Shown here piece after piece: positions 31,785-39,319 of a stretch of 45,519 nt of DNA. Made by a program: the position numbers and the translations under genes. The stretch spans positions 1 through 45,519 of the forward strand of contig JAFQFH010000019.1 of the NCBI GenBank assembly GCA_017398685.1. Reading direction: 5' to 3'. A model generated the notes under the pieces. That model was not told the origin of the DNA, did no database searches, and was given only the letters and a program-made list of their open reading frames with translations. Position 1 is the stretch's first letter; each line of letters opens with the position of its first letter. Source of the DNA: Oscillospiraceae bacterium. Its GTDB lineage: Bacteria; Bacillota; Clostridia; Oscillospirales; Oscillospiraceae.

Positions 31785-32525
31785 ATGTCCGGACATTCCA
31801 AATGGCATAATATACAGAAAACCAAGGGCGCTGCCGATGCAAAGCGCGCACAGGCTTTTACAAAGATAGCAAGAGAAATGGTCGTTGCTGTTAAGGAAGG
31901 CGGCGGTGGGGATCCCAAGAGCAATTCCAAGCTGGCTACCGTCATTGCCAAGGCCAAGGCCGCTAACATGCCCAATGACAATATCAAGCGCACTATCGAC
32001 AAGGCTCTTGGTGCAGGAAATACCGAAAACTACGAAAAGATAGTCTACGAAGGCTACGGCCCTCAGGGTGTTGCTGTTATCGTTGAGACCATGACCGACA
32101 ACCGCAACCGCACCGCCGGTGAAATGCGCCACTATTTTGATAAGTACGGCGGAAACATGGGCGCTGCCAATTGCGTTTCCTGGTCCTTTGACCGCAAGGG
32201 CGTTATCGTCATTGACAATGAGGACGAAGAGCTGGACGAAGATACCGTCATGATGGATGCTCTGGAAGCCGGCGCTGCTGACTTTGAGGCAGATGGCGAG
32301 GTTATGACCGTATATACCGCCGAGGATGAGGTTGCCGCCGTTTCCGACGCACTTACCGCCGGTGGCTACAAGCTTCTCTCCGCACAGGTCGAGATGCTGC
32401 CCCAGAACGGCTACATCAAGCTGATCAACGAGGACGACATCAAGAACATGCAGAAGATGCTGGATATGTTCGAGGACAACGACGACGTCCAGAACGTCTG
32501 GCACAACTGGGAAGACGCTGAATGA
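31785..32525 (+). CDS. yebC: YebC/PmpR family protein, target of the element
   Basis: 246 residues from ATG 31785, giving the family start MSGHSKWHNIQKTKGAADA. Other conserved parts are GGGDPKSNSKLATVIAKAK and NRTAGEMRHYFDKYGGNMG. YebC proteins act as transcription regulators and, in recent work, help ribosomes through polyproline stretches. The last 12 codons coincide with the left attachment repeat of the integrated element. The protein remains complete because the element brings its own stop (GAA TGA); the uninterrupted gene would have ended GAA TAA, as seen at 38828. Its original terminator now lies 6.3 kb away. Confidence 0.96.
   Translation: MSGHSKWHNIQKTKGAADAKRAQAFTKIAREMVVAVKEGGGGDPKSNSKLATVIAKAKAANMPNDNIKRTIDKALGAGNTENYEKIVYEGYGPQGVAVIVETMTDNRNRTAGEMRHYFDKYGGNMGAANCVSWSFDRKGVIVIDNEDEELDEDTVMMDALEAGAADFEADGEVMTVYTAEDEVAAVSDALTAGGYKLLSAQVEMLPQNGYIKLINEDDIKNMQKMLDMFEDNDDVQNVWHNWEDAE
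32487..32523 (+). repeat. attL: 37-bp direct repeat in the yebC 3' end
   Basis: Identical over 37 bases to 38792-38828; the match begins GTCCAGAACG and ends GACGCTGAAT. It encodes the last residues of YebC. The preceding GAC/GAT adds two more matching bases with one mismatch. This is the direct-repeat signature of tyrosine-recombinase integration. Confidence 0.92.
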
Positions 32526-32540
32526 GGCACTAACGTGCCT
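32525..32540 (+). repeat. hairpin directly after the yebC stop
   Basis: AGGCAC-TAAC-GTGCCT, a 6-bp stem with no T-run, lies at the left edge of the element. It is not a convincing terminator, so yebC transcripts may continue into the integrase gene. Confidence 0.5.
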
Positions 32541-32602
32541 TGAAACGGCAAAATCAAGCTGATTTAGGAACTTTATCGAGGGATTGAAATTGCAGTTGTG
32601 CA

Positions 32603-32653
32603 ATACCTCAGTTCAACGATGACATACGTTATACCTTGAGTTGCGACATACCA
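32603..32653 (+). repeat. possible integrase arm sites, left end
   Basis: Two imperfect repeats: ATACCTCAGTTCAACG...GACATAC (32603-32627) and ATACCTTGAGTTGCGACATACC (start 32631). They share ATACCT, AGTT and GACATAC. Related words occur at the right end: GTTGCGACATACCA (32640-32653) matches GTTGTGACACACCA (38671-38684) at 12 of 14 bases, and ATGACATAC (32619-32627) recurs inverted as GTATGTCAT (38658-38666). Confidence 0.45.
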
Positions 32654-32666
32654 AGGAGGAAAACGT

Positions 32667-33560
32667 ATGAAAATCAGCACCGCCGCAAAGGAATATTTAA
32701 TCGAGATTGAGGTTAGAAAGTTCACTCCTAAGACTATTAGGAGCTATCGAAATAACCTCAATCTTTTTCTACGTTTTTGTGCGGAGGAAACCGACATAAC
32801 AGACATTGAAGATATAAGTCTGGCAGTCGTGCGGCAATTCTCCCTTTATATGTCAAGTAGAGGAAAAAAGGGGAGCTATATAAACGGGCTTCTTAAAGTC
32901 GCAAAAGCTTTTATTCAATACTGTTACGATGAGGGTTACGGCGGATTTAACACAAAGAAAAATTTCCGATGGTGTAAACAGGACAAGGCCGTAATAATGG
33001 CGTTTAAGCCCTCTGACGTGCGCCAGATGCTCAAATCATGCAGAGGCGGGGATTATATTCATATACGAGATACGGCTGTCTTAACTACGTTTTTTGAAAC
33101 CGGCATACGCTGTTGGGAGCTGTGCTGCATCCAGAAGAAAGATATACATGATGATTTCATTATCATTAACGGCAAAAACCATAAACAGCGTGTTGTTCCT
33201 ATAACGCCTGTGCTGCGGAAAGCTCTGTTAAAGTACGACACGGCGAAAGATAATTACTTTAACTTGAAGAACACAGATGATTATTATTTCCTCTCTTTTC
33301 ACGGGCGGCAGTTAACCAACAGCGCAGTTGAACATATAGTTAAACGTCACGGAGAGGGGATTACAGATATACGCGTATCGCCCCACACTTGCAGACATTT
33401 CTATGCCCAACAGCAAATCAAAATGGGAACAGACCTTTATACAATATCGCGGCTCTTGGGACATGAGAATATACAAATCACGCAGACCTATTTGAACAGT
33501 CTGCGTGATGATGACGTTATTAACATTGCAAAACACAAAAGCGTGCTTATGAGCATATAA
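32667..33560 (+). CDS. int: tyrosine recombinase (integrase)
   Basis: 297 residues; AAGGAGG precedes ATG 32667. An N-terminal SAM-like core-binding domain (TPKTIRSYRNNLNLFLRFC) is followed by the catalytic domain. The catalytic set is complete: Arg148 (FETGIRCWEL), His240 and Arg243 (SPHTCRHF), His266 (LLGHENIQ) and Tyr275 (QTYL). It most likely recombines the 37-bp sites. The gene starts 141 bases after the yebC stop in the same direction, without a strong promoter of its own, so transcription may come from yebC. Confidence 0.95.
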   Translation: MKISTAAKEYLIEIEVRKFTPKTIRSYRNNLNLFLRFCAEETDITDIEDISLAVVRQFSLYMSSRGKKGSYINGLLKVAKAFIQYCYDEGYGGFNTKKNFRWCKQDKAVIMAFKPSDVRQMLKSCRGGDYIHIRDTAVLTTFFETGIRCWELCCIQKKDIHDDFIIINGKNHKQRVVPITPVLRKALLKYDTAKDNYFNLKNTDDYYFLSFHGRQLTNSAVEHIVKRHGEGITDIRVSPHTCRHFYAQQQIKMGTDLYTISRLLGHENIQITQTYLNSLRDDDVINIAKHKSVLMSI

Positions 33561-33588
33561 GCGCGAGACGGATATAACGGAGATAACG

Positions 33589-33618
33589 AAAAAAAGCGGG
33601 AGGTTATGCGCCTCCCGC
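33589..33618 (-). terminator. terminator of the leftward operon
   Basis: On the minus strand GCGGGAGG pairs with CCTCCCGC (33596-33603 with 33611-33618), loop of 7, and is followed by a run of seven T (33589-33595 on the plus strand are A). On the plus strand there is no good T-run, so it mainly serves the minus-strand operon and lies 22 bases past its last stop. Confidence 0.85.
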
Positions 33619-33640
33619 CTTGGTTTATATTTGTGTATTA

Positions 33641-33946
33641 TCAAATTGTATAAAACCGCTCCACGCGGTATTCCGGTTTATAATCAAATAAGGTGGTAAG
33701 TAGTTCCAGTAATGCTTCGGCCTTATTAAGTGCGGTTTTGCTGCCGTCTTCCGCCACATACCATTTGAGAATATCAATGATGTAGAGATATACAATCCAT
33801 TCTTTATCTCTCTAATCTTCCAGAAGAAAAGGAATATCAAGAAAATCTTTCATGTATTCAATATGTTCATCGGGAATACTGTGCATGAGCGCGCCCATGT
33901 CAGTATGGTCTAAAAGGTTATCAATAACAGCTTTATCAGTAATCAT
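33641..33946 (-). CDS. small acidic protein with an in-frame TAG codon (operon gene 4)
   Basis: Read from ATG 33946 it gives 101 codons to TGA 33643-33641, interrupted only at codon 45 by TAG (33814-33812, reading ...PFLLED-TAG-RDKEWIVY...). The start overlaps the stop of the GIY-YIG gene as ATGA. Both halves are coding-like in the same frame: MITDKAVIDNLLDHTDMG before and AEALLELLTTLFDYKPEYR after. No family is recognised. Interpretation depends on the TAG: with readthrough it is a full gene; without it, a 44-residue peptide or a pseudogene. Confidence 0.65.
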
Positions 33947-34380
33947 ATTTTGCTCCTGTCTGTAATTATTTCAAGTATTTTTGCTTCATCAATTTTATTG
34001 TATTCGTATTTTGTCCAGTCTTCCGCTCTGGGTATCTGTGTATTGAGTGCCGGTCTATACTGTCGTATCAATTCTCCCTCTTTAGCTCCTATTTCCTGTT
34101 CGAGTGCCGATGGGTGGGTCTGCGTGGCGTAATAAAGCACATCAAAGTTAATCTTATGCCCCGCCTTTGCAGCGTTTGCCAATAATGAGTATTTCAATTT
34201 CCGCGCTACTTTAATGCCAACATAGTGCTAAGAAATGCGTTTGAGCATATTAAAGCTCTTACCGATATATACAATATGGCTGTCAATTTTGATGCAGTAT
34301 ATACCGGCGTGCTCATATTTGGTTGCAAGCCCTTTTCTTTTTAACCAGTTATATACGTTTTCCTCATACTTCTTTGCCAT
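33943..34380 (-). CDS. GIY-YIG nuclease-type protein with an in-frame TAG codon (operon gene 3)
   Basis: 145 codons from ATG 34380 to TGA 33945-33943. The GIY-YIG core is visible: GIYCIKIDSHIVYIGKS near residues 26-42, an arginine in MLKRIS, and the distal glutamate segment EGELIRQYRPALNTQIP. Codon 51 is TAG (34230-34228), between LKRIS and HYVGIK. All recognisable catalytic features on both sides of the TAG are kept in one frame. Such proteins cut or nick DNA; the substrate is unknown. The start overlaps the previous stop as TAATG. A remaining possibility is a nonsense-mutated pseudogene. Confidence 0.75.
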
Positions 34381-34910
34381 TAAAAATCAAACCTCTTTTC
34401 TTCTGGTCTGACTTCTGGATACTTCTAATCTGGATTTTCTTTTATATTTATTGAATTATTTATAAAATCCGTATTATTTATTTCTATATCTTCTGGCAAT
34501 ACATTAAAACCGTTTTGTGGTTTTTCCTGTTCGGCAGAAGTACAATTTTCAAAATCATATCCGTTGTCCGACATCGTGTTTTTTGATTGTGTGGCGGATT
34601 TCGGTATTTCATAGAAATCAAAGGTGTTTCCATGGGCGGGAACTAAATAGCCCTTATCAATGAGCTTGTGGAATTGGTCATGATATGTTGACCGAGCCAT
34701 GCCCACGCCTTGTCTGATTGCTGTTGGTGATAATGCAAGGGTATAATCATCTCTGTTTGCGGCGCAGTATAAGTAAAGCAAAAAGGCATGAGCACCTAAA
34801 TCACGGGCGGCGGCCTGCCAGTTTTCATTTTTTATTCCAAGGAAGTCAGACGACACGCGCTCACGATGAACGCGTATCATCCTCTGATTAGGGTATGTAA
34901 TGGGAGGCAT
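34380..34910 (-). CDS. winged-helix, replication-initiator-like protein with an in-frame TAG codon (operon gene 2)
   Basis: 176 codons from ATG 34910 (GGAGG nearby) to TAA 34382-34380. The N-terminal half looks like a DNA-binding wHTH: ARDLGAHAFLLYLYCAAN, then LSPTAIRQGVGMARSTYHDQFHKLIDKGYLV. The C-terminal part is low-complexity and asparagine-rich. Codon 162 is TAG (34427-34425); the frame then continues with KYPEVRPEEKRFDF and stops at a TAA that overlaps the next ATG (TAATG). It resembles helix-turn-helix proteins of Firmicutes mobile elements; replication or regulatory function is inferred, not shown. Confidence 0.75.
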
Positions 34911-35149
34911 TATTTACCTCCGTTTCCGAGCTAATCAATTGCCCGTTTGAGCTTTTCAATTTCCAGAACGGCATCCGTTACATCAACCTTGACTTTGAAG
35001 CGTTCCAATACTCTGTCCGCTATGCGGTCTATATCTGCTTCACTTAATAGCTGCTCTTTTAGATACCGCTTCTGGAAGTACCACTATAATGTAATATCTG
35101 CTGATTTTTCGAGAGCGTCTATGTAACGCTCAAACATGGATTTATACAT
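34910..35149 (-). CDS. small helical protein with two in-frame TAG codons (operon gene 1)
   Basis: 79 codons from ATG 35149, with AAGGAGG (35164-35158 on the minus strand) 8 bases upstream, to TAA 34912-34910. TAG occurs at codon 22 (35086-35084) and codon 73 (34933-34931). Readable segments are MYKSMFERYIDALEKSADIT, WYFQKRYLKEQLLSEADI, DRIADRVLERFKVKVD and LEIEKLKRAID then LGNGGK. It is predicted to be mostly helical with possible coiled coil. The stop overlaps the next gene's ATG (TAATG). As the first gene after a near-ideal promoter and ribosome site, it would yield only 21 residues if TAG were a stop. Confidence 0.65.
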
Positions 35150-35175
35150 CGTATAAACCTCCTTAAATTTTATTT

Positions 35176-35203
35176 GAAAAGTTATATATTTCTTTAACTT
35201 TTC
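35176..35203 (-). repeat. hairpin in the leader of the leftward operon
   Basis: GAAAAGTTA (35176-35184) and TAACTTTTC (35195-35203) form a 9-bp inverted repeat between the -10 box and the ribosome site of operon gene 1. It could be an operator or an RNA leader structure. Confidence 0.5.
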
Positions 35204-35210
35204 TATAAAT

Positions 35211-35239
35211 ATTATAACATTTTTAATTAAGAAAAACAA
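35211..35239 (-). promoter_or_regulatory. sigma-A type promoter of the leftward operon
   Basis: On the minus strand TTGTTT (35239-35234), 17-base spacer, TATAAT (35216-35211). Excellent match and spacing, with a leader of about 55 bases to gene 1. Confidence 0.8.
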
Positions 35240-35633
35240 ATTAAGAAGTTTTTGCATTAGTTATTGAAAGTTTTGAGCGGGAGCAGGGGGATATATTTCG
35301 GGATAAGAAAAAATTCTACTTCATTATCTGTCGAGCCACGCACGACGAAAATCCACAGACGGCAAAAATTTGCCGTTATCGTTGCGTTTATAGTAAATAC
35401 ATTGTGTTTTACTTTGTTCGGAATGAAAATGCAGCAAATTTAATACAAATGAAGAAAAATGCTATGTTTATATTGCTAACGCATAGATTTTAAGGAATTT
35501 GAAAGAAATTAAAATAAAAGTTATTAAATTTGCAGAAAAAGCTTGCCAATATATATATATATATATAATTGAGTGTGCGAACAGTCGATATGTGTCGATT
35601 GCCGCACATCTTTTATTTTTGGAGGAAAATATT
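35240..35633. other. intergenic control region between the divergent gene blocks
   Basis: About 390 bases with no supported ORF. It contains an 18-bp palindrome at 35359-35376 (ACGGCAAA-AA-TTTGCCGT), an (AT)9 tract with a promoter, and a 6-bp hairpin TGTGCG/CGCACA near 35574-35606 just ahead of the 70-aa gene. It is a candidate location for operators or an origin, but no iterons or DnaA boxes were clear. Confidence 0.5.
35543..35569 (+). promoter_or_regulatory. promoter with an (AT)9 spacer
   Basis: TTGCCA (35543-35548) and TATAAT (35564-35569) are separated by 15 bases made wholly of AT repeats; the AT run covers 35549-35567 and runs into the -10. One more AT unit would restore 17-base spacing. 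It lies 65 bases before the 70-aa gene. Confidence 0.5.
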
Positions 35634-35846
35634 ATGCGTATTATTCTGGACACTGATAAGAAGACCATTACTGTTCCTTGGAACTATGCACAGAAGATTG
35701 CAGAAATCAATGAAATTATCAAAAACGGCGGAGGAGAAAAGCAATATACTTTCAGTTCTTTCCTTAAAGAAAATTGGGATTATTGCATGGCTAATACAGA
35801 TAAATATCTGATTGTTGCTGATAAGCCTGTAAAAAAGAGTAAATAA
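35634..35846 (+). CDS. hypothetical 70-residue mobile-element protein
   Basis: GGAGG lies 9 bases before ATG 35634. The protein starts MRIILDTDKKTITVPWNYA and ends IVADKPVKKSK. I have the impression of similar small proteins in Firmicutes phages and elements, but no function is known to me. The TAA stop overlaps the following ATG (TAATG), coupling it to the HTH protein. Confidence 0.75.
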   Translation: MRIILDTDKKTITVPWNYAQKIAEINEIIKNGGGEKQYTFSSFLKENWDYCMANTDKYLIVADKPVKKSK

Positions 35847-36034
35847 TGGGGGCTAAAAGAATTTCTCCGGTTGAAATCGTGGAAATGCAACGACTTTACC
35901 GGATATATGGAACATACGCCGCCGTGGCCCGCGAGATGGGGCGCAGTGCATCCTCGGTATCAAAGTATGTGCAGATGAAAGGTGTGCCGAAAAGCATTAG
36001 AATAGCGGTAGATAATTTATCGCAGAAAGGATAA
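35846..36034 (+). CDS. small helix-turn-helix protein
   Basis: 62 residues. The HTH is EIVEMQRLYRIYGTYAAVAR followed by EMGRSASSVSKYVQMKG, of the recombinase/Hin HTH type. It could regulate the element. Its C-terminal end (KSIRIAVDNLSQKG) is repeated in altered form upstream of the second lipoprotein (37003-37071), showing that this junction was duplicated. Confidence 0.75.
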   Translation: MGAKRISPVEIVEMQRLYRIYGTYAAVAREMGRSASSVSKYVQMKGVPKSIRIAVDNLSQKG

Positions 36035-36039
36035 ATTTA

Positions 36040-36996
36040 ATGAAAAAAATCATATCTATTGTTTTAGTCTTGATTTTTGCATTTTGTGCTTGTGGCAGTA
36101 CCGTGCTTACACAAGACCAGATAGAAAATCTTATTATTGAAATGGCAAAAGCATATGGCTACGAATTAACCATAGATAGTAATGTAGTAACAGTTCTTGC
36201 ACCAAGTGATAGCAAATTCAGCGAAGATAGCATTTCAAAAGAGGGTCACTATATTGAAGTATTAGACTGTGAACTCATTCAATTAGATAATGGTAATTAT
36301 AAACCAAATTTAAAAATTAGAAATATATTCCCTGAAAATTTGAGTGAAAAGTATCCTGATTGTCTCCACATATACATGACTTATAACGATAGTGATGGTT
36401 TTGGTATTCATAACACAACAGCTTCAATATCTTATTTAGCTTACGGTGAAGGCATTTGGACTAATTCAAGTATCATAACATTTGCGGAATTTGATCCCTC
36501 CGAGGTAAGTTCTCTCTCCGTTACAGGATATATGTTTGTGTCTGAAAGTGAAGGATTGGATTTCATTTTTTCGCCTGTCATAAATTATGAAATAAAGGAT
36601 TTACTACCAGAAAGTGCTTTTGATGATGTCTCAAGTGATGCGGTTACTGTTGAAGAAGTGAAGCTTATAGAGAGAAATAACGGAGTTGCTGTTGAGGCAA
36701 AGATAAGGAATACAGGCGATGTAAAAAAAGATGTTACCGAGGTATCTTTCCAGCTTCTTGATAAAAATGGCGATGTTTTGGCTATAAATGAGCTCAATGT
36801 AAGAGAACTTGAAGTTGGACAGGCAGGAAAAGGCACCAGCAACACAATTTCCGACTGCGATTATGATGATGTTGGTGCAGTAAAATTTATTTCTTATAAT
36901 TATGGAAAATTTTATGGTGGAAGCAAATTAGCGTGGACAACCGATTTCTACTCAGGTGGAGACTTTAACAAACCCTTTATTTTTACTTTTGATTAA
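36040..36996 (+). CDS. lipoprotein with FxLYD-like domain
   Basis: 318 residues. AGAAAGGATAAATTTA precedes ATG 36040. The signal MKKIISIVLVLIFAFCACGS has cysteines at 16 and 18; Cys18 after alanine fits a lipobox best. The C-terminal region (VKLIERNNGVAVEAKIRN, then DVTEVSFQLLDKNGDVLA) fits an FxLYD/DUF3426-like beta-sandwich. Surface-anchored, function unknown. The signal region and ribosome site are nearly identical at DNA level to those of the second lipoprotein, but the mature parts differ completely. Confidence 0.82.
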   Translation: MKKIISIVLVLIFAFCACGSTVLTQDQIENLIIEMAKAYGYELTIDSNVVTVLAPSDSKFSEDSISKEGHYIEVLDCELIQLDNGNYKPNLKIRNIFPENLSEKYPDCLHIYMTYNDSDGFGIHNTTASISYLAYGEGIWTNSSIITFAEFDPSEVSSLSVTGYMFVSESEGLDFIFSPVINYEIKDLLPESAFDDVSSDAVTVEEVKLIERNNGVAVEAKIRNTGDVKKDVTEVSFQLLDKNGDVLAINELNVRELEVGQAGKGTSNTISDCDYDDVGAVKFISYNYGKFYGGSKLAWTTDFYSGGDFNKPFIFTFD

Positions 36997-37002
36997 AAAA
37001 AA

Positions 37003-37071
37003 GCTTCAATAGGCGAAATTAGTGCAAAAAGCATTCGTATCGTAGTAGAGAGGTTACCACAGAAAGGATAA
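37003..37071 (+). pseudogene. remnant of the HTH gene 3' end
   Basis: 22 codons with no start, reading ASIGEISAKSIRIVVERLPQKG split by eye as an open tail up to TAA 37069-37071. The end KSIRIVVERLPQKG matches KSIRIAVDNLSQKG of the HTH protein at 10 of 14 positions. The same spacing to a lipoprotein start follows. It is the scar of a tandem duplication. Confidence 0.6.
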
Positions 37072-37076
37072 ATTTA

Positions 37077-37802
37077 ATGAAAAAAATCATCTCTATTGTT
37101 TTAGCTTTGATTTTTGCCTTTTGTGCTTGTGGCAGCACCGTGCTTACTCCCGAGGAAAGGGAGGCAATATTCTATGAGGTTGCAAAAGAAAAAGGGATGC
37201 TTGATAATGAAAATCCAAGCCCCTATGAGTTATCTAAATCAGCCTACGAGAACATTAATGTTGCTTATAAAATCATAAGGCAAATAGGCGACGATATGTA
37301 TGAAGTTTGGAAAGCCTGTATTGGGGAACACGATAAAGTACTCTCCTATGGTAGTGATTATCTGGCAACAAAAGTTTCTTTAAGTGAAGAGGAAATAAGA
37401 ATAGGTTTAGCAATGCTGCGATATGGGGACGCATTGAATAATATGAACCAAGTCCAAAGACAGCGCCATATTGACGATGCTGATGTATGGATATTTTATT
37501 TTGATAATTACGAAAACAATATGGTTGCGGCATGTGTGTGTTCCATAGTAAACGCATATTTTCATAATGGAAAATTTGAAGAAGCAGAGACTGCTCTTGA
37601 TACAGCCAAGGAAAATCTAAAAATATTGAGCGCAGATTACTCGGATTATGAGCATTACCTAAATCTTAAAGGTTTCTTTACTACAACAAGAGCTTATTTA
37701 GATTATTGTCAGAATTTGGAAGGTCCAGTAAAACAACTCATAGACTACAAAGAGCAAGCAAAAGAATATATTGGTAAATTGGATTATTATTTTGAGGATT
37801 AA
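37077..37802 (+). CDS. lipoprotein, helical (second copy of the module)
   Basis: 241 residues. The signal MKKIISIVLALIFAFCACGS differs from the first lipoprotein at one residue. The mature part is helical and possibly TPR-like: YEVAKEKGMLDNE, then KFEEAETALDTAKENLKIL and DYKEQAKEYIGKLDYYFED. No family recognised. A terminator follows directly. The shared signal with an unrelated mature part suggests module swapping under one expression and export signal. Confidence 0.8.
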   Translation: MKKIISIVLALIFAFCACGSTVLTPEEREAIFYEVAKEKGMLDNENPSPYELSKSAYENINVAYKIIRQIGDDMYEVWKACIGEHDKVLSYGSDYLATKVSLSEEEIRIGLAMLRYGDALNNMNQVQRQRHIDDADVWIFYFDNYENNMVAACVCSIVNAYFHNGKFEEAETALDTAKENLKILSADYSDYEHYLNLKGFFTTTRAYLDYCQNLEGPVKQLIDYKEQAKEYIGKLDYYFED

Positions 37803-37806
37803 TAAT

Positions 37807-37840
37807 AAAATGGGGCAGATACAAGTCTGCTCCATTTTTA
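37807..37840 (+). terminator. terminator after the lipoprotein genes
   Basis: AAAATGGGGCAGA pairs with TCTGCTCCATTTT (13 bp with one G-T pair), loop of 6, then T-rich. Confidence 0.85.
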
Positions 37841-37927
37841 TGTGTTCGCAAGAGTACACCTTTACAAACATATAAAAACACTCTGTTCTATCCGTTCGCA
37901 AAATATATTTTTTTATTTACAAATATA

Positions 37928-37968
37928 TTCGTAAATGTGTTGACATTTACGAACACTTGCGATAGAAT
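37928..37968 (+). promoter_or_regulatory. promoter and palindromic operator/res site of the serine recombinase
   Basis: TTGACA (37940-37945), 17-base spacer, TAGAAT (37963-37968): near-perfect sigma-A. An 11-bp perfect inverted repeat TTCGTAAATGT-GTTG-ACATTTACGAA (37928-37953) covers the -35. Related half-sites GTTCGCAA (37844 and 37892) and ACGAACA (near 37949 and 37969) flank it. This arrangement fits autoregulation or a res site. Confidence 0.65.
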
Positions 37969-38001
37969 ACGAACAGATGATAAAAGAGAGGGGCGCATAT
38001 C

Positions 38002-38619
38002 GTGGACAGTCGCACTTACTACTATGCAAGAGTATCAAGCAAGGAACAAAACCTTGACCGCCAGATTGCTGCTTTTCGTTCTCTTGGAGCGACAGACAGG
38101 GAGATAATAACCGATAAGGAAAGCGGCAAAGATTTAGACCGCGCCGGTTATCAGGCTCTTAAAAATGCTATGCTGCGCCGTGGAGATACGCTTGTCGTAA
38201 AATCCCTTGACCGCCTCAGCCGCAATAAAGCGGACATTCATAATGAGCTGCGCTTCTTCAAAGAGAATGGCATACGGCTTAAAGTGATTGACTTGCCTAC
38301 CACTATGATGGAGCTGCCAGAGGGACAAGAGTGGGTTTTTGATATGGTAAACAATATTCTGATTGAGGTATTGGGAACTATAGCAGAACAGGAACGCGCC
38401 ACGATAAAGCAGAGACAGGCAGAGGGCATTGAAGCCGCTAAACAGAAAGGGAAGAAGTTAGGCCGTCCCGCAATCACATTTCCCGCAAATTGGGACACTG
38501 TCTATGCCTCTTGGAAATCGGGAGAGATTACCGCAAAAACGGCAATGGAGCTGACAGATACAAAAAGAACAAGCTTTTATAAGCTCGTCGGCATGATGGA
38601 GGAAGATAGGGGAGAGTAA
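38002..38619 (+). CDS. serine recombinase (resolvase/invertase family)
   Basis: 205 residues, GTG start after GAGAGGGGCG. N-terminal catalytic domain YYYARVSSKEQNLDRQ with Ser12 as the expected nucleophile, then DRLSRNKADIHNELRFF and the E-helix region AEQERATIKQRQAEGIEAA. A C-terminal HTH follows (KSGEITAKTAMELTDTKRTS). The size is that of Tn3-type resolvases and invertases, not of large serine integrases. It probably resolves dimers or inverts DNA at the adjacent palindromic sites rather than integrating the element. Confidence 0.93.
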   Translation: MDSRTYYYARVSSKEQNLDRQIAAFRSLGATDREIITDKESGKDLDRAGYQALKNAMLRRGDTLVVKSLDRLSRNKADIHNELRFFKENGIRLKVIDLPTTMMELPEGQEWVFDMVNNILIEVLGTIAEQERATIKQRQAEGIEAAKQKGKKLGRPAITFPANWDTVYASWKSGEITAKTAMELTDTKRTSFYKLVGMMEEDRGE

Positions 38620-38657
38620 TTCTCCCTTGACTTCCTTACAAGGTCTGTTATAGTTAA

Positions 38658-38684
38658 GTATGTCATAGTTGTTGTGACACACCA
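38658..38684 (+). repeat. possible integrase arm sites, right end
   Basis: GTATGTCAT (38658-38666) is the exact complement of ATGACATAC at the left end (32619-32627). GTTGTGACACACCA (38671-38684) matches GTTGCGACATACCA (32640-32653) at 12 of 14 bases. Confidence 0.45.
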
Positions 38685-38791
38685 TATATTATAATCCGCA
38701 CTTTTGGTATTGCGTAAAAGCTGAAAAGGTTTGATTTTCCAATGGTTTTCACAGTTTCCACTACTGGGAGCGAAGCTCACAGGCGGAAGAT

Positions 38792-38828
38792 GTCCAGAAC
38801 GTCTGGCACAACTGGGAAGACGCTGAAT
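38792..38828 (+). repeat. attR: 37-bp direct repeat
   Basis: Second copy of the yebC 3' end, identical to 32487-32523. It is followed by AATAAAAAACCC, the original end of the gene (stop TAA) and its terminator. Confidence 0.92.
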
Positions 38829-38869: not shown

Positions 38870-38872
38870 ATT

Positions 38873-39319
38873 TATGAGTTCGCCTGTAAGCCGGGTTCTG
38901 TTAAAAACGACCATCTATCTAGACTACGGATTGCTCCGCAGTTCAAGCCGCCTCCTGAGAACGACCGGGCCGGTCACATGTTCTCCCACGGCGTTGCTCC
39001 GGATAGAGTTTACAGCATCCACATGTCTCCATGCGATGGGTGAGCTCTTACCTCGCCTTTCCACCCTTACCACGTCGGAATGAGCTTCGCTCAGCTCGGG
39101 CCTGTCGCAAGCGACAAGCCCTCGTCGCTCCGCTATTCCTCCTTTTCAAAGCAAAGCCAGCTTTGCTTTGAGTGTGGAATACGTGGCGGTATATCTCTGT
39201 TGCACTTGTCCGAGGGTCACCCCTGGCGGGCGTTACCCGTTATCCTTGCCCTATGGAGCCCGGACTTTCCTCACGCACAGGCTTTTGCCTTGTGCCCGCG
39301 GTCGTTCAGCGTACTCAGT
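38873..39319 (-). ncRNA. rnpB: RNase P RNA, bacterial type
   Basis: Catalytic RNA of tRNA 5' maturation. On the minus strand the universal GAGGAAAGTCCGGGCTCC is near the 5' end (about 39255-39272) and AGAACCCGGCTTACAGGCGA at the 3' end (about 38881-38900). The P1 helix forms between TGAGTACGC (39317-39309) and GCGAACTCA (38883-38875) with one mismatch. An extended hairpin CAAAGCAAAG-CTGG-CTTTGCTTTG is internal. Ends are estimated from P1. Several long plus- and minus-strand ORFs inside it are not genes. Confidence 0.95.

Follow-up and report, generated by a model that had tools for sequence, protein, structure and literature searches.

A satellite-like element of an Oscillospiraceae bacterium with amber codons very probably read as glutamine, and its possible dependence on an outside suppressor

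The 45,519-nt stretch of DNA analysed here (the window) comes from an Oscillospiraceae bacterium (GCA_017398685.1, contig JAFQFH010000019.1, positions 1 to 45,519, forward strand) and contains a 6.3-kb integrated element (32481-38828), bounded by a 43-nt direct repeat (95% identity, spacing 6305), in which a leftward operon (35149-33641) carries five in-frame TAG codons across four overlapping genes. Comparison with relatives of the third gene, a nuclease gene, indicates that the amber codons in this gene and its relatives are very probably read as glutamine, and suggests that selection maintains such genes in elements with no visible decoder, inside cells in which UAG is a stop. The element is satellite-like as judged by its anatomy (integrase, attachment (att) repeats, replication initiator), and the reading that we favour, with moderate confidence, is that it is unlocked by a suppressor from outside, most likely that of a TAG-recoding phage.

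All five TAGs are present at the codons at which the original prediction had placed them (Table 1), together with the three stop/start overlaps between successive genes (TAATG, TAATG and ATGA), and once TAG is read through, the four genes contain no in-frame TAA, TGA or frameshift. It had also been argued that five TAGs out of five would have a chance of about 0.004 (1/3^5) if decay produced the three stops equally; the arithmetic is correct but the sample is small when taken alone, and it is the homologues that make the argument decisive, because 17 copies of gene 3 hold 33 TAGs at 14 alignment columns. These are the window copy and those of 16 related loci, from 17 genomes: 15 carry one to four in-frame TAGs, two (in loci L047 and L057) have none, and TAA or TGA occurs in none of the 17, so that the comparison of related copies proposed to look for random decay came out against it. 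Since the 15 TAG-bearing copies stem from separate genomes and several sequence projects, and TAG is never replaced by TAA or TGA, decay and sequencing error were rejected as its source. The 16 loci, found in GTDB contigs with two short peptide patterns and thus a lower bound, are labelled Oscillospiraceae, Lachnospiraceae, Ruminiclostridium, Clostridiales, Eubacteriales or Clostridia, and ten of them goat, deer, cow or buffalo gut; the gene-3 copies of L050 and L053 are one base apart. A search of 149 further host-family genomes gave one strong gene-3 match with 3 TAGs in its matched part (G040, the same record as L060 and counted once), and one weak match with no TAG.

Fifteen of the non-window copies were aligned, with 48-61% identity to the window copy. 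Glutamine is present in another copy at 11 of the 14 TAG columns vs 14 of the 127 other columns (p 1.6e-7; alignment columns are not independent, here or in the terminase comparison below), and it is the modal residue at 4/14 vs 1/127. The exchange is reciprocal between the window and L060, each having a TAG that faces glutamine in the other, and the LNxQIP column of gene 3 holds 15 Gln and two TAGs (L058, L060), with TAG also in the phages L153 and L154. A glutamine kept in 10 of 11 copies of the protein of gene 2, which resembles the phage replication-initiation protein O, is TAG in L056. At the TAG column of the window gene 3 itself there are 4 Gln, 4 Ser, 1 Trp, 1 Glu and 7 TAG. The TAGs of gene 1 face Arg/Asn/Leu and Asp/Ser/Lys in homologues, that of gene 2 faces Ile/Val within a poorly aligned tail, and gene 4 was without a relative when compared with the open reading frames (ORFs) at the 16 related loci, the phage collection likewise giving no match. 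Among the relatives, the gene-1 TAGs of L048, L049 and L055 share one column, occupied by glutamine in L047, with those of the window and L061 further on. The prediction of amber recoding to glutamine within a standard-code genome is thus supported by the relatives, through the exclusive use of TAG, the glutamine columns and the purifying omega, and at the window's own sites glutamine in homologues backs it for gene 3 only; the proposed fit of glutamine to the context LKRAID-x-LG is not borne out by the homologues.

The selection acting past the gene-3 TAGs is, on the evidence of substitution counts, purifying. Omega (dN/dS, the comparison originally suggested for both sides of each TAG), counted on the codons past the first TAG of both copies, ranges from 0.07 to 0.31 with a median of 0.20 in the 24 of 105 pairs with a usable dS (finite and >0.1), pairs that are not independent and mostly have high dS values. 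The least saturated pair (L052/L054) shows 10 synonymous and 3 nonsynonymous changes past the TAGs, and upstream a Gln codon stands against a TAG.

The use of TAG differs sharply between gene families, a restriction that the original prediction did not cover, just as it did not give the borders of the element. Expressed as TAG/(TAG+CAA+CAG) per family of the related elements, the TAG share is 33/107 in gene 3, 6/36 in gene 1 (n=7, five with TAG), 4/78 in the O-like gene (n=11, four with TAG, that of L062 preceding the probable ATG) and 2/25 in family 8, vs 0/545 pooled over seven other families, namely the integrase (0/134 in 13 integrases, including that of the window), family 0 (0/120), the WYL regulator (0/127) and families 5 (0/27), 9 (0/44), 11 (0/42) and 14 (0/51). 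Families 13 (7/13; frames over the end repeats of L053-like elements, taken as non-coding), 17 (1/9), 6 (5/31) and 12 (1/7), the last two with TAGs at the stop codon or upstream of the likely start, were left out of the comparison, as were the TAG-free families 10, 15, 16 and 18-21. In gene 3 the codons TAG, CAA and CAG occur 33:29:45, as though TAG were an ordinary synonym, and the base 3' of TAG is distributed about as after CAA and CAG, save for fewer G (1/31 vs 10/64, L053 left out), so that no readthrough signal stands out.

Termination shows a related bias. As noted originally, the other main ORFs of the element do not end in TAG and the host uses TAG stops, in 28 of its 284 long ORFs. 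In the TAG-bearing elements a terminal TAG is found in 4/126 genes, vs 11/65 long ORFs that flank elements at the same loci (p 0.0015) and vs the window host (p 0.026), p-values that are rough because the genes are related; the 126 omit six genes each of the TAG-free L047 and L057, and over all 138 element genes there are seven, three of them in L057. The scarcity of TAG stops throughout the elements suggests that the whole element is adapted to cells that read UAG, as it seems, with the need confined to some genes. L057, in which gene 3 and the O-like gene are TAG-free and three of six genes end in TAG, looks as if adapted to the standard code.

Gene 3 is, by its motif residues and predicted fold, a GIY-YIG nuclease of the T4 endonuclease II (EndoII, DenA) type. 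Profile searches matched it to phrog_1111 (Table 1), to the PDB profile 2wsh (4e-8) and to Pfam GIY-YIG (2e-4; 21.9 bits, slightly under the 22.6-bit cut-off). The AlphaFold model (pLDDT, the per-residue confidence score, 91.9) retrieved 2wsh and UvrC GIY-YIG domains with Foldseek at probabilities of 0.99-1.00, with query-normalised TM-scores of only 0.40-0.47. The same motif and fold are found in T4 EndoII, to which tblastn gave 30-31% identity over 69% of the protein; unlike it, the element gene is interrupted by TAG, and the TM-scores are low and the Pfam score is slightly short of its cut-off. Every one of the 15 TAG-bearing copies has its first TAG between alignment columns 25 and 63, ahead of the KEGE motif (column ~106), whose glutamates we take to be part of the GIY-YIG nuclease active site. 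No Pfam or PHROGs family matched genes 1 and 4.

The original prediction named no decoding agent, and the host offers no obvious one. It has release factor 1 (RF1), and on this together with its TAG stops a recoded host was rejected. A suppressor tRNA(CUA) was not found in the window or in the 16 related loci. The draft of the window genome contains 35 tRNA genes, none of them CUA; the search detected none for at least Trp, Ile, Asn and Asp, and therefore the draft is incomplete and a tRNA gene could be missing.

Related genes occur in phages and plasmids, some of which have in-frame TAGs themselves. A first scan of IMG/VR with two sequences gave no match; gene-3 relatives in that collection have TAG in L144, L153 and L154 and none in L145-L147 (the weaker matches L155-L164 were not counted), and for the O-like gene 2 neither the phage nor the plasmid collection gave a match. 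L153, the 27-kb phage G317, has TAG in its terminase (10/22 Gln-type codons), tail-region and nuclease genes, but its integrase and a run of six ORFs, probably head genes, are free of it. Its GIY-YIG gene, with five TAGs, adjoins a TAG-bearing, weakly O-like gene (phrog_270, E 0.008) beside the TAG-rich terminase. G317-type terminases carry TAG in 6 of 11 cases, G317 included, and in these large-subunit (TerL) proteins glutamine is found elsewhere at 20/29 TAG columns vs 23/384 others (p 1e-15) and is modal at 17/29 vs 4/384. The terminases of the small phages L153/G317, L294, L295, L296, L298 and L299 (~26-27 kb where long) have 4-10 TAGs each, and the five TAG-free ones are 67-79% identical to them. 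No tRNA was found in eight further small-phage records, five of them TAG-bearing and several of them fragments, so that these small recoded phages, like the elements, seem to need decoding from outside. Among plasmids, pRGI00117 (L149) has a TAG-free Rep3 gene, a terminase small-subunit gene with TAG and a GIY-YIG gene in which TAG occupies the same RxxQH site. Its replication gene is 44% identical to that of pRGI00100 (L353), both being TAG-free and next to TAG-bearing genes, two of which are kept between the plasmids at ~63% identity. One of the two encodes the terminase small subunit (phrog_2538, 7e-29 and 5e-30; 1/3 TAG sites faces Gln), which on a 7-kb plasmid would be what a packaging parasite carries. 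The deposited coding sequences that were compared start past the in-frame TAGs, leaving the recoding unannotated, and standard annotation would truncate such genes generally.

These observations can be assembled into the reading that we favour, in which the resident cell and the phage-infected cell would translate different parts of the element. The integrase, the regulators and the cargo, written in the standard code, would function in the resident cell, where the four-gene operon would yield truncated products only, the nuclease ending at residue 50, ahead of the conserved KEGE glutamates. Since neither the element nor its hosts showed a UAG-reading tRNA, the operon genes are probably silent until decoding changes, and they would be translated only where UAG is decoded, most likely after a TAG-recoding phage has brought a suppressor tRNA-Gln(CUA); we infer the phage as the supplier. 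The helper's genetic code would then serve as the induction signal of the element, with its replication or packaging as the presumable outcome. Whether satellites and small plasmids of gut Clostridia in general keep their helper-phase genes locked by amber codons and rely on a recoded phage to lend its suppressor tRNA, with the helper's code as induction signal and with tRNA-less small recoded phages perhaps living alike, is a wider proposal to which we give an even chance.

Several results weigh against all this. On the side of decoding, some gene-3 TAG columns are otherwise Lys (16/16) or Glu (14/16), so that not every TAG site held glutamine before; one TerL TAG faces Asn in 10/10 other sequences, and the glutamine enrichment at gene-1 TAG columns is not significant. 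The replication gene of a second element architecture (family 11) is TAG-free in 5/5 copies, and therefore replication is not always locked. The records of G317-type small recoded phages show no CUA tRNA, the only tRNA found being a Thr tRNA in G317; satellites are therefore not alone in needing a suppressor from elsewhere, and its true source may be a different one. A CUA tRNA was not seen in the 17 carrier genomes or in 400 genomes of the host family, with patterns and ARAGORN; the patterns require a normal T-loop, and that for the 400 genomes also C32 and a short variable loop, so that an odd suppressor could escape them. The tRNAs at pattern-matched places were Arg(tct), Leu(cag or tag) and Ser(gct) (in the carrier genomes 16 loci were run through ARAGORN, and most other matches are of the same Arg/Leu/Ser kinds), and 15 of the 17 loci matched in the 400 genomes held no tRNA at all. 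As a positive control, a stricter pattern applied to IMG/VR returned 101 stretches with 103 CUA tRNAs by ARAGORN; phage contigs with such tRNAs are numerous, which counts in favour of a phage as supplier. Comparison of these stretches (up to ~15 kb, not whole phages) with the elements gave integrase similarity only, in one stretch, and with G317 one short match. None of 41 matches to the G317 TerL in the 400 family genomes has a TAG, and therefore a resident recoded prophage was not seen. A helper phage was not identified among the sequences searched.

Two other sets of calls were set aside. Loosening ARAGORN (-ps80) produced a dozen weak CUA calls over scattered loci, which were judged noise and not used, and phrog_2 TerL matches in 300 family genomes contained 0-2 TAGs each among the matches listed, with TGA and TAA too, read as matches overrunning gene ends.

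The main rivals of the phage-supplied suppressor are a decoder on the side of the host and a defensive trap. In the former, UAG would be read as glutamine by a hidden CUA tRNA or, at low RF1 levels, by near-cognate Gln tRNAs, for example under stress or upon induction of the element. This accords with the small recoded phages that lack a CUA tRNA and with the gaps in the tRNA set of the window draft; we consider it unlikely, given that the host has RF1 and ends 28 of 284 long ORFs in TAG, that the 400 family genomes showed no CUA tRNA within the pattern used, and that with up to four TAGs per gene leaky readthrough would be inefficient. In the defensive alternative, a nuclease silenced by TAG would be completed by the suppressor of an incoming phage and then attack phage or host DNA. 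Such a trap would suit the concentration of TAG in the nuclease gene and its lower share or absence in replication genes, the position of the first TAG ahead of the KEGE glutamates and the likeness to T4 EndoII, but it appears improbable: PADLOC gave weak matches only for the four operon proteins (best E 0.002, UzuA, gene 3), the O-like and terminase small-subunit genes carry TAG too, and the same kind of nuclease adjoins terminase genes in ordinary and recoded phages, and therefore looks like a part of phage replication or packaging.

It could also be that the elements acquire TAG genes from recoded phages time and again and retain them only briefly, the genes working once the element is back in such a phage and the TAGs having no regulatory role, as the related module in the recoded phage L153 and the difference in GC content (38% in the element vs 52% in the host) might suggest. 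We hold this passive import to be very unlikely, since the 17 copies are diverged and have TAG at varying columns, a sign that they have long resided where TAG is decoded, and since TAG stops are scarce across the elements. That the operon is a cluster of pseudogenes, with TAGs arising as random nonsense mutations in a host that uses TAG as a stop and shows no decoding tRNA, is already contradicted by the absence of TAA and TGA in the 17 copies, the omega past the TAGs, the glutamine enrichment and the seven TAG-free families of the same elements, and retains hardly any probability.

Recoding of TAG to glutamine in gut phages is reported as proven by mass spectrometry and is viewed there as restraining structural and lytic genes (PMC9523058); it is described (as code 15) for crAss-like phages (PMC9523058), for phAss-1 (PMC10607447) and for theta-ribozyme phages, whose ribozymes, next to suppressor tRNAs, have been proposed to act in the expression of late genes (PMC10879173). 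Recoded phages are reported often to encode a suppressor tRNA (PMC10746230), and alternative codes were reported in 0.35% (38/10,742) of pig-gut prophages (PMC12454387). The element shares with these phages TAG for glutamine inside genes, a standard-code host and TAG-free integrase and resident-state genes, and differs from them in its size (4-12 kb), in the lack of a recognised capsid or terminase gene and in that searches of it and its hosts revealed no suppressor tRNA. Code switching, often with an own suppressor tRNA, is known in phages; here the amber-coded genes lie in a satellite-like element. In open-access PMC articles, by title and start of the abstract, nothing on recoded phage satellites was found. 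Like the phage satellites, among them the Staphylococcus aureus pathogenicity islands (SaPI), the phage-inducible chromosomal islands (PICI) and P4, the element is small and has a tyrosine integrase, att repeats, regulators and a replication-initiator gene, with no virion genes recognised, and the related plasmids carry a terminase small subunit. Known satellites sense their helper via a derepressing protein, whereas the lock of this element would be the genetic code. The plasmids pRGI00117 and pRGI00100, from an uncultured bacterium, show the same pairing of a TAG-free Rep gene with TAG-bearing genes, on a plasmid and not integrated. If correct, the reading implies that genomes depend on one another through the genetic code itself, and possibly a new form of phage sensing by satellites, or a defence.

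Table 1. Features of the integrated element in the window.
Feature	Coordinates	Strand	Basis or remark
Left att-like repeat, at the yebC 3' end	32481..32523	+	43-nt repeat, 95% vs 38786-38828
Tyrosine integrase, no TAG	32667..33560	+	Pfam PF00589 1e-26
Operon gene 4, one in-frame TAG 33814-33812 (codon 45)	33641..33946	-	no family match
Operon gene 3, GIY-YIG endonuclease (T4 EndoII-like, predicted), TAG codon 51 (34230-34228)	33943..34380	-	phrog_1111 3e-10
Operon gene 2, putative phage replication-initiation (O-like) protein, TAG codon 162 (34427-34425)	34380..34910	-	phrog_270 1e-5, weak
Operon gene 1, small protein, TAG codons 22 and 73 (35086-35084, 34933-34931)	34910..35149	-	family n=7
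Probable divergent control region, amber operon vs rightward genes	35150..35633	.	gene order
Small element gene, family 12; ATG start inferred via relatives	35634..35846	+	3 other members
Helix-turn-helix (HTH) protein, family 16	35846..36034	+	weak HTH matches; relatives in L047, L057
Lipoprotein-like cargo, no TAG	36040..36996	+	ORF and lipobox-like N-terminus judged by eye
Second lipoprotein-like cargo, N-terminus copied from the first	37077..37802	+	121-nt repeat, 88%
Serine resolvase/invertase, no TAG	38002..38619	+	PF00239 3e-31; phrog_125 2e-48
Right att-like repeat	38786..38828	+	partner copy of the 43-nt direct repeat

The remaining features of the element are collected in Table 1. 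The probable control region contains a TATAAT-like box (35216-35211), as judged from its letters, and the starts of the two lipoprotein-like genes lie in a 121-nt repeat (35990-36110 and 37027-37147). Among the ten element proteins of the window Pfam and PHROGs recognised no virion or terminase gene and no gene for packaging or capsid interference; the families of the related elements, compared by representatives only, likewise included none recognisable as a terminase or capsid gene. Repeats of 32-129 nt, 4.4-11.8 kb apart, flank gene 3 in L048, L053-L058, L060 and L061, at tRNA genes in L048, L056, L060 and L061 and at yebC in L058; L050 has a 17-nt repeat only, and flanking direct repeats were not found in L047, L049, L051, L052, L059 and L062, several of which end at contig ends. 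In L058 (5304 and 14432) a second element, of another architecture, makes use of the yebC att site that the window element occupies. Family 0 is abundant (27 copies, e.g. L060 5773-6198), with one to four copies per element where present and a TAG-free homologous part; Pfam gave no match for the two copies tried. In one IMG/VR sample (3300031992) the tRNA-less recoded phage L294 and a 112-kb contig with the suppressor pattern (L258) occur together, which is suggestive only. Just outside the window element, beside the right att repeat, lies a class A RNase P RNA (38871-39317, minus strand).

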